DNA from: Brachyhypopomus gauderio
Lineage: Eukaryota; Chordata; Actinopteri; Gymnotiformes; Hypopomidae
Direction: 5' to 3'
Assembly: GCF_052324685.1 (NCBI RefSeq)
Contig: NC_135218.1
Location: forward strand, 13,238,858 to 13,302,857
DNA: 64,000 bases
The notes under the pieces were generated by a model. It saw nothing but the letters and a program-made list of their open reading frames with translations. It ran no database searches and was not told the DNA's origin. This document shows, one piece after another, positions 57,001-62,785 of the stretch. Made by a program: the position numbers and the translations under genes. How positions within the stretch are numbered: the first letter of the stretch is position 1; the number at the start of each line of letters is the position of its first letter.

Positions 57001-60000
57001 ATATTCCTCATCTCTGTAATCCTGATCCCTGTGGATCACCTCTAGCTAGAGGCCCTGAATAGGCCTGTTGTATTTCAAACTAAATGGAGAGCTGTAATTC
57101 ATATTTTCAATGCATCTCAATTGCTTAGTGCCTCTGTTGCAGCCCTCCGTGTGCATGTGTGTGTGTGTGTGTGTGTGTGTGTGTGTGTGTGTGTGTGTGT
57201 GTGCGTGTGTGTGTGTGTGTGTGTGTGTGTGTGTGTGTGTGTGTGTGTGTGTGTGTGTGCAGGTCCCTGCTCCCGCAGCAGTAACACAACACTGTCTCAG
57301 CACAACTCACACAGGGGATCGCAATTGTGTGACTACAAAACAAGACTCATGTCTTGTCAGTCTCATGAGGTCTCTCTCTCTCTCAAACACAAACACACAC
57401 ACAAACACACACACACACACATGGACAACTTTAGGTATTTGGAGAATGTATGAAAGATTGTTTGCAGATGAAGGTGATGAACACACTTAGGACCAGTAGC
57501 CTTGACCTTGGCATAACGAACTGTTAAAAGCGCTGTTCACAGTTCTGCTGTCTGTTCTGAACGTGGTTATTTGTTGTTTTTGTGCACCGTGATGTTTGGA
57601 TCCCTGCATGCACTCTTTCTCCTGCTGTTTCTCACACACATTAGTGGGACTAACATGCCCCATGTGCTGACAGTGCTGATAGTAGCCTAGGACATGCATA
57701 GTTTACCACTCTCACTGTAATGTACTTGACTCTGTGTCTCCGCTAGAGCCCGAGGAGTTTGAGCAGTTTCATGTGGGGGAACGTATGCATGTCCTCTCCC
57801 CCAACCGTGAGCACCTCACCTGGGCAGGAGGTGGGGGCAGGAGCCGCTTCCTCCACCCGGCTGTCAGTGAACGTCACAAACCATCCATCGCCCGTGCCCA
57901 GTCACCCCAGGGCTGCTCCCTCAGGTGAGACGACGGAGGCCCTCTGCAGACGGTCACGCCTCTGTCCGCTGATGACGGCACCGCCCTTCAGTGGGCCCTG
58001 TGCAGATTCGTTACACGTCTTCCTTGTTGTCGCAGTGCATGTGGACGTGAGACACCATAAGCTCGTGTGCAGAACCCAGTCTCTGCACGTGTGCCACGTG
58101 TGCCACGTGTGCCACAGCTGCCGACACAACAGCAGTGAGCGAACTCAGAGATCCTCACACAAGCATGAGGTGAGAGAAGCAAGCATATGCACACACACAC
58201 ACACACACACACACACACACACACACACACACACACACACACACACACACACACACACATACACACACACACACACACTCGCACACATCCTTTCCTAGTC
58301 TTGTGGTATGGGGGGGGGGTGGGCTTGTGTCTGTTTTTCCTGCCCACAACACACCTGATTCCACCTCTCCTCCTCCTGGAGCCTGGAGTGTTCCATGTCT
58401 CCCCGGGGACCCAGCACATGGAGGGAGAGGGTCTGGTGCGAGGGAGATCCAGACTCAGTGAAGGAGACAGATCCGGGTGGACAAGCAGCAGGTCGCCAGA
58501 GCAGCCCTTGGGTGGAAACTGCTCCCAGTGCAGCTTGGACCAGGAGCTTGCTTCCCTACCACGCGCATCTCCCACCCGGAAGGTAGCAGGCACCTGCACA
58601 CCCACACACACTCCACTGCGAGCACCTCCCACACAATACACCTCTGCAATACACCAATTCCCCTATGCGGAAGCTCTGTTAAAATCATATATGGTCACAT
58701 GTACATTAATGTAAAATTCCATATACTGCCTTTCTCACACTTTCAAACCGACCCACAAAGATCTATCACACAAATCATAAACTACAAATAGAAAGTACAA
58801 GTCTATACCAAAAATGTGTTTTTAATGAAGTAAGGAGCTGCTGAAATTTTAGGATGAAATGTACTTGCATGTGCTCTTCATTCTACATGTAAGCCTACAT
58901 ATAAACACGTACATAAACAACTCTATAACAGCATTTTTGTTTTTTCAGTATTGTATATGGTTTTTACAGGCCTTCTGCCCTATGGGGTTTCTCATGTTTG
59001 TACTCTCTCTCTGTCTCTCTCTTCTGTGTGGCCTGAAGCAGCTGACCAAAACCAGGTCATTTCCACTCTTCCAGCCACACATCACTCATCCCGCCTCCAT
59101 GAAATCCCTCCACACAGGTAGAGCAGACCACGTGCACCCAGACACAGACAGTACCACACAGCTACAGCCTGAACTGGCTCCCTGGACCAGTGTCTTCTGA
59201 ATAAATACATCTGTAACGGGTCTCGGGCTTAGAGCAAGTCGTTGGACATCCAGACACTGAGCAGAGATAGTTTCTTCAGTTTATATACTTGTTGTGAATG
59301 TGTTCGGTATTGCTTTCCGTGTGTGTGTGTGTTTAGGGTTCGTGTGTAACTCGGAAATGCTGAAGGCCCTGTATGTCTGTGCTGAGAGCTGTACTCCACG
59401 CGAGCACGCTGGAATCCAGAGGGTCTTGTCCAGACTGCAGGAGTGTGGGCTCAGAAATCAGTGTCTGGTACAGTCTGAATTATCCCAATGTACACATCTA
59501 TGTAAAATGCCGTCCGGACCTCCAGAGCACCTCAGCCATGCGTGTTTTCCCAGTGGGTCCGAGGCCGACAGGCCACGCTGGAGGAGCTCCGGGTGGTGCA
59601 GCCAGAGAGCCACATCCATCCTTATGGGACGAACCGGCTGGGCCGGCTGCACCTGGCCGCTGCACGCATGGCGGCCGGCAGCGTGACGGAGCTGGCGCTG
59701 CGTGTGGCACAGGGGGAGCTGAGGGTGAGTCGACAGGTCCACCACACTTCAACCCTCCTGTCTTGGACTTCACTTTCATGGTTTTTGTTTTTTTTTTTTA
59801 CTGAAAACCATGGCAAAGGTTTGAGCGGTGGAGACTAGACATTCCCTGTGTAATGGAGCTCTCTCTCTCTCTCTCTCTCTCTCTCTCTCTCTTTCTTTTC
59901 TTTCCTCCCTTTCTCTTTTTCTCTCCCCCTCTCTCTCTCCTCCCAATTGCCTCGGTCCAGAATGGTTTTGCAATACTTGAACCCCATGAACATGATGCCT

Positions 60001-62785: not shown

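Follow-up and report, generated by a model that had tools for sequence, protein, structure and literature searches.

Does a class IIa histone deacetylase (HDAC) gene whose catalytic centre has been taken apart still encode a protein that selection maintains? The question is raised by a locus of the fish Brachyhypopomus gauderio, examined here in a stretch of 64,000 nucleotides, the window (NC_135218.1 = C8:13238858-13302857, from a 796.5-Mb assembly). The initial annotation had described an HDAC7-like gene with a dismantled enzyme centre at 59337..62785; unless a contig is named, positions are those of the window.

Gene structure

Ten catalytic-domain exons with GT-AG splicing were found at 59337-62785, where they form a single open frame of 367 residues. 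The motifs named in the initial annotation are present, in frame and spliced in consistent phases as it described, but the gene is larger than the extent it gave: our hand-built full model comprises 20 exons on the forward strand (54035-63251) and 744 codons including the stop, with no internal stop. AG and GT are present at 19/19 introns, and frameshifts and broken splice dinucleotides are absent from the model. The signs expected of a decayed pseudogene, namely stops, frameshifts, damaged splice sites or absent introns, are not seen. A processed pseudogene was also considered and is ruled out by the introns. The histone deacetylase domain (PF00850, curated cut-off 27.9) is recognised with 162.7 bits in the catalytic exons and 159.3 bits in the full model protein, and third-position GC in the catalytic part is 0.627 versus an intron GC of 0.431.

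A tblastn search with human N-termini pointed to exons 3 and 5; the remaining exons outside the catalytic domain were placed from phase, splice signals and visual similarity. Exon 1 (54035-54100) begins at the first ATG and has an open frame, a GT donor and a VPMD that by eye resembles HDAC4; confidence is moderate, as translation may begin at a more upstream codon and an extra 5' coding exon may exist. Exon 2 (54360-54477), which holds the residues preceding the MEF2 helix, has AG/GT sites and a phase matching exon 3, again with moderate confidence. Exon 3 (54836-54938), the MEF2-binding-helix exon, matched HDAC7 with 23.9 bits (E 0.66) and the second hdac7 gene of this genome, located on C10, with 27.7 bits (E 0.012) in tblastn. 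Exon 4 (56065-56159) was placed by phase and position, while exon 5 (56879-56995), the SEP exon, matched the HDAC7 N-terminus with 27.7 bits (E 0.046). The linker consists of exon 6 (57747-57924; IARAQSP, open frame, AG/GT and phases, low to moderate confidence), exon 7 (58073-58169; required by phase, without homology, low confidence) and exon 8 (58382-58582; low confidence), and exon 9 (59042-59117; moderate confidence) lies immediately ahead of the deacetylase domain. Exons 1, 2, 4 and 6-9 are supported chiefly by phase, exons 7 and 8 being the weakest. The final coding exon 20 (63176-63251) ends with NEPIEHDENI and the stop, supported by the similar end of the C10 gene (DEPMEHDQDSM and stop).

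Loss of the catalytic centre

The protein was compared with human HDAC7, whose reference sequence as used here is identical to PDB 3c0y over 384/384 residues, and with HDAC4. At 16 chosen catalytic, structural-zinc and corepressor-contact positions, only D707, H709, H669 and C535 are kept, while twelve are changed or deleted (D801, C533, H541, C618, D624, D626, T627, F679, F738, H843, H670 and D705). In an hdac4-like gene from this genome, 15/16 of these positions match human HDAC4; the exon with C618 was not part of its joined sequence.

The three zinc ligands of an active deacetylase (Asp/His/Asp) are incomplete. D707 and H709 are kept, within the DVHHGN of exon 14 (60519-60638), and D801, the zinc-binding Asp of GFDAAEG, is Ser in exon 16 (61437-61555), in which G799 has also become Glu. 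The tandem His of the GHH motif and its Asp partner are likewise broken up: H669 is kept, H670 is Asp (EHDA replaces GHHA in exon 12, 59961-60025), and D705, the first Asp of DWD, is Asn in exon 13 (60255-60324). The class IIa His that replaces the catalytic Tyr, H843 in HDAC7, is Leu, giving LEGGLDL in exon 17 (62251-62384), which also carries CDASEAC. Apart from that at G799, these changes had been noticed in the initial annotation, together with the persistence of the D707 and H709 equivalents and the loss of at least one zinc ligand, and they hold against both human HDAC7 and HDAC4.

As read from the alignment, the losses go beyond that list and include both pocket Phe (F679, F738), structural-zinc Cys and corepressor contacts. 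The GHH exon has an unrecognisable end, its tail MGFCFFN having been lost, and the FFPG of exon 14 reads PNWE. The class IIa landmarks, which had been called intact, are present as motifs in frame, but the 36-residue gap described below, the loss of 3/4 structural-zinc ligands, the altered end of the GHH exon and PNWE show that this description goes too far. Exon 15 (61249-61346) is part of the spliced catalytic frame, and SLQRVLQIQ in exon 18 (62475-62559) is identical to C10.

Loss of the structural zinc clamp

At the structural zinc site of class IIa HDACs (C533, C535, H541 and C618) the window protein has Tyr, Cys, Pro and a deletion. The first three positions lie in exon 10 (59337-59467), where the HDAC domain starts and one codon is deleted at R547; the change of H541 to Pro comes from a hand-corrected alignment, a MAFFT alignment giving Thr. 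C618 belongs to 36 HDAC7 residues (600-635, including D624, D626 and T627) that are missing in frame from exon 11 (59554-59724), in which parts of two ancestral exons are fused at ~59655/59656. In the hdac4-like gene this stretch is found on separate exons, the short middle one read by eye, and the loss looks like one event joining parts of an exon and a later exon.

Catalytic exons overlooked in the window were considered as well and rejected, since tblastn over the window and a further 10 kb with the missing pieces, among them the 600-635 segment, gave chance-level matches only. An assembly or sequencing artefact, with a collapsed exon 11 and consensus errors elsewhere, appears very improbable: although only a single assembly is at hand and the exon 11 fusion could in principle be a collapse, the window is free of N runs, and the changes are all in frame and spread across many exons.

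In HDAC4, residues C667, C669, C751, D759, T760 and F871 make class IIa-specific contacts with a SMRT peptide, an Ile of which is sandwiched by F812 and F871 (PMC6294515). By alignment and counting, the HDAC7 equivalents are C533, C535, C618, D626, T627, F738 and F679, and of these C535 alone remains in the window protein. The HDAC4 mutations C667A, H675A and C751A each abolish SMRT/NCoR binding, the structural-zinc clamp holding the partner (PMC4505066). As the equivalents of all three binding-essential residues (3/3) are gone, it is unlikely that the gene was retained as a conventional SMRT/NCoR scaffold, and the proposal that it had been kept for scaffolding is not supported.

Identity of the gene

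The catalytic exons scored higher against human HDAC4 (388 bits) than against HDAC7 (367 bits) in a PDB search. Of 343 aligned HDAC7 positions, 196 are identical to HDAC7 and the same number to HDAC4, and HDAC7-only and HDAC4-only matches (22 vs 23) are neutral on identity. Since the catalytic domain is no nearer to HDAC7 than to HDAC4, the HDAC7-like nature stated in the initial annotation rests on the linkage to VDR, on the terminal exons and on a tree with the C10 gene.

Window positions 39061-39315 hold the last exon of VDR. No further VDR was matched in the assembly, where 10 additional matches show 29-37% identity; among PDB chains, the nearest to this exon carry the name Vitamin D3 receptor A and are those of zebrafish. 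HDAC7 is linked to VDR in human too. A second hdac7, for which the initial annotation had proposed a search, exists on C10 and is conventional where readable, with the MEF2 helix, 14-3-3 sites and LEGGHDL retained and a twist gene ~11 kb past its last exon; its catalytic exons before LEGGHDL are expected inside an 11,440-N run (positions 6216-17655 of C10:4374001-4404000). The hdac4-like gene lies elsewhere, at C8:27.0 Mb, with another twist gene within 10 kb.

A tree of the shared exons, built from five sequences with no hdac5 or hdac9 and with provisional human N- and C-terminal pieces, grouped the window gene and the C10 copy against human HDAC7, human HDAC4 and the hdac4-like gene (UFBoot 87), and the hdac4-like gene with human HDAC4 (UFBoot 100). 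This topology agrees with a gene duplication that postdates the divergence from human HDAC7, and the window gene is, on this assignment, the VDR-linked one of two hdac7 genes in this fish genome. The window protein changes faster than the C10 copy: the branch lengths are 0.80 and 0.32, and in relative-rate comparisons, for which the human sequence was in part provisional, unique changes numbered 38 vs 17 against human HDAC7 (178 sites, p 0.006) and 32 vs 11 against HDAC4 (p 0.002).

An hdac4-type identity, despite the higher HDAC4 score over the domain, was rejected, as VDR linkage, terminal exons and tree favour hdac7 and the hdac4-like gene occupies its own locus. A search of the whole assembly with conserved class IIa exons for hdac5, hdac9 and the C10 catalytic exons, which is poorly sensitive to short exons, gave 7 matches, all to the hdac4-like gene, a C4 locus or the window gene. 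No hdac5 or hdac9 turned up in it, for which candidate limits or unreadable stretches may be responsible. A search of this kind with the window N-terminus recovered only the window's own exons (6/6) and missed C10.

Several other features of the window were recorded. VDR extends over 34721-39315, with its C4 zinc finger (PF00105, 91.2 bits) and the last exon; zebrafish has two VDR genes. Upstream of it, 11902-18089 on the forward strand contains an SH2 match (15713-15958, 27.8 bits) and a PTB match (17859-18089, 34.9 bits), perhaps of a tensin-type gene, a name given by eye; its long frame at 11902-13449 matched no Pfam family. At 2001-6000 a GC skew of ~0.97 persists over 4 kb in a strand-asymmetric, repeat-like sequence, and a similar repeat was seen by eye in the region of the C10 hdac7.

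Probable selection on the reading frame

How long the catalytic exons could have drifted without leaving marks was assessed by neutral simulation of these exons alone, with substitutions only, no indels and 2000 runs per divergence. At 34-40% changed residues the simulated exons carried on average 5.8-6.9 stops and 8-10 splice-site changes, and clean runs numbered 0/2000, while the observed exons contain no stop and no splice-site loss. At 0.05 substitutions per site (10% changed), 42/2000 runs were clean.

To compare the distribution of changes, 287 positions at which HDAC4 and HDAC7 agree were binned by their conservation in the best 80 of at least 594 prokaryotic relatives; the reading frame of each prokaryotic sequence was chosen by the D.D.H motif, a choice that biases D705, D707 and H709 towards appearing conserved. 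With rising conservation, the changed share of non-deleted positions in the window protein fell from 28/70 through 17/60, 12/38 and 5/27 to 3/21 (Spearman p 0.001), while at near-universal positions 17/42 were changed and 4 more deleted, giving 21/46. These counts were made after the window protein had been realigned by hand over its first 80 columns; uncorrected, they are 30/70, 17/60, 12/38, 5/27, 2/21 and 19/43. The hdac4-like control, joined from tblastn pieces minus its short middle exon, was changed at 0/46 near-universal positions and at 3/72, 10/59, 1/39, 3/28 and 1/23 in the lower bins. Near-universal positions show a modest rise (p 0.018 vs the two bins below, 0.5-0.95; 0.08 without residues 672-683; 0.21 vs all lower bins). 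The fall in the changed share would be the pattern of a protein held by its fold, and the modest rise that of a released active site. Together, simulation and gradient argue that the protein was constrained while its enzyme centre changed.

Pairwise comparison gave dN 0.41 and dS 2.05 against C10 (179 codons, six pieces) and dN 0.26 and dS 2.36 against the hdac4-like gene (214 codons, 6/10 catalytic exons, without 11, 12, 18 and 19, of which 11 and 12 are degraded). A dN/dS near 1, which the initial annotation had proposed to look for, is not seen in these pieces, where the ratio is far under 1, but dS is saturated and in some pieces infinite, pairwise values average both branches, and exons 11 and 12 are left out.

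The window gene probably either specifies a protein without enzyme activity or is slowly being lost. In the latter case, constraint would have relaxed once the C10 copy had taken over, starting with the enzyme centre, and the gene would recently have become, or would soon become, a pseudogene, no stop having arisen in it yet. We regard this as a genuine but lesser possibility. A second hdac7 does exist, the protein has accelerated in the pieces common to both copies, and the drift of the second 14-3-3 site and the MEF2 helix fits general relaxation; a brief recent neutral phase may leave no mark, as the clean runs at low divergence indicate, and slow decay would look much alike for a while. 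There is also a precedent in the hdac7a-related pseudogene of zebrafish LG23, though in C10-type linkage (PMC3426487). Against it, the model has no stop, frameshift or broken splice dinucleotide, and no simulated run remained clean once neutral drift had altered 34-40% of residues. Because long neutrality predicts stops and broken splice sites and the window gene has none, we favour, with some reserve, a coding class IIa pseudo-deacetylase that evolves fast and whose frame is kept by selection. The initial annotation's view of an HDAC7 paralogue of the pseudoenzyme type is supported, and the second hdac7 and the tree agree with it.

Regulatory parts and possible role

The class IIa features of the N-terminus are partly preserved. 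The MEF2-helix exon is recognisable but drifted (the C10 counterpart is AVASSVVKQKLAEVILKK), and a PDB sequence search with this piece matched no MEF2 complex. Exons 4 and 5 together yield a first predicted 14-3-3-type site (LRRT/ASEP), while the second is degraded (LCHKSSAP; C10 has TRKSPLTRKESAP). At the C-terminus, exon 19 (62674-62785) holds a recognisable stretch that was likened to the class IIa HDAC export signal.

MITR is a splice form of HDAC9 without the catalytic domain. A gene whose transcripts end before the HDAC domain in a similar manner, with the domain exons as passengers, would account for the loss of both enzyme centre and clamp beside a remaining first 14-3-3 site. It is nevertheless quite improbable, as passengers would lose the frame, the splice sites and the conservation gradient that these exons keep.

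For the pseudo-deacetylase favoured above, selection would have preserved the frame and the splice sites and tolerated changes in the enzyme centre. The product of the gene, in the past and probably still today, would be a class IIa protein devoid of deacetylase activity and of SMRT/NCoR binding of the known kind. Since the MEF2-helix exon, the first 14-3-3 site and the export-like C-terminus remain, the most specific guess is a MITR-like role or that of a natural competitor, which might occupy MEF2 under signal-controlled shuttling without bringing HDAC3. A bolder version, which we consider rather unlikely, is that of a natural antagonist of its own family: having lost clamp and enzyme under selection, it would hold MEF2 or 14-3-3 without HDAC3 and so relieve repression, with the exon-fusing deletion as the step from repressor to competitor.

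Comparison with known systems

Class IIa HDACs are weakly active and repress via SMRT/NCoR (PMC4505066, PMC12383505). They have already been termed pseudoenzymes in print (PMC12383505), and whether they act as enzymes or only as platforms is treated as an open question (PMC12383505, PMC4505066). Among the fish genes, zebrafish hdac7b is raised after heart injury (PMC10108034), and a review puts the number of zebrafish HDAC genes at 11, with no second hdac7 mentioned in the passages covered here (PMC7288346). Among the open-licence papers listed in our searches we saw none that treats the catalytic residues in a duplicated hdac7 of fish, and no class IIa gene lacking the zinc site and the corepressor clamp as well. 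A gene copy without enzyme centre or known corepressor contact, with its frame kept, represents a natural separation-of-function experiment; if it is expressed and conserved, some class IIa function requires neither.

The window gene resembles vertebrate HDAC7 (PDB 3c0y) in domain order, in its VDR neighbour and in the identical catalytic-domain residues counted above, which HDAC4 equals in number. Unlike HDAC7, it has lost the zinc Asp, the charge relay, the pocket Phe, the class IIa His and the structural-zinc clamp, and has the 36-residue deletion and a diverged linker. With the twist-linked C10 copy it shares the terminal exons and the 87% grouping, whereas C10 keeps MEF2 helix, 14-3-3 sites and LEGGHDL, its preceding catalytic exons lying in the N run. 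A degraded hdac7 duplicate as such is already known from zebrafish LG23, where the hdac7a-related pseudogene adjoins twist3 (PMC3426487); by this linkage it is the counterpart of C10 and not of the window gene. As for MITR, the window protein might likewise act on MEF2 without deacetylase activity, but the domain that splicing removes from MITR is present in the window gene in degraded form.
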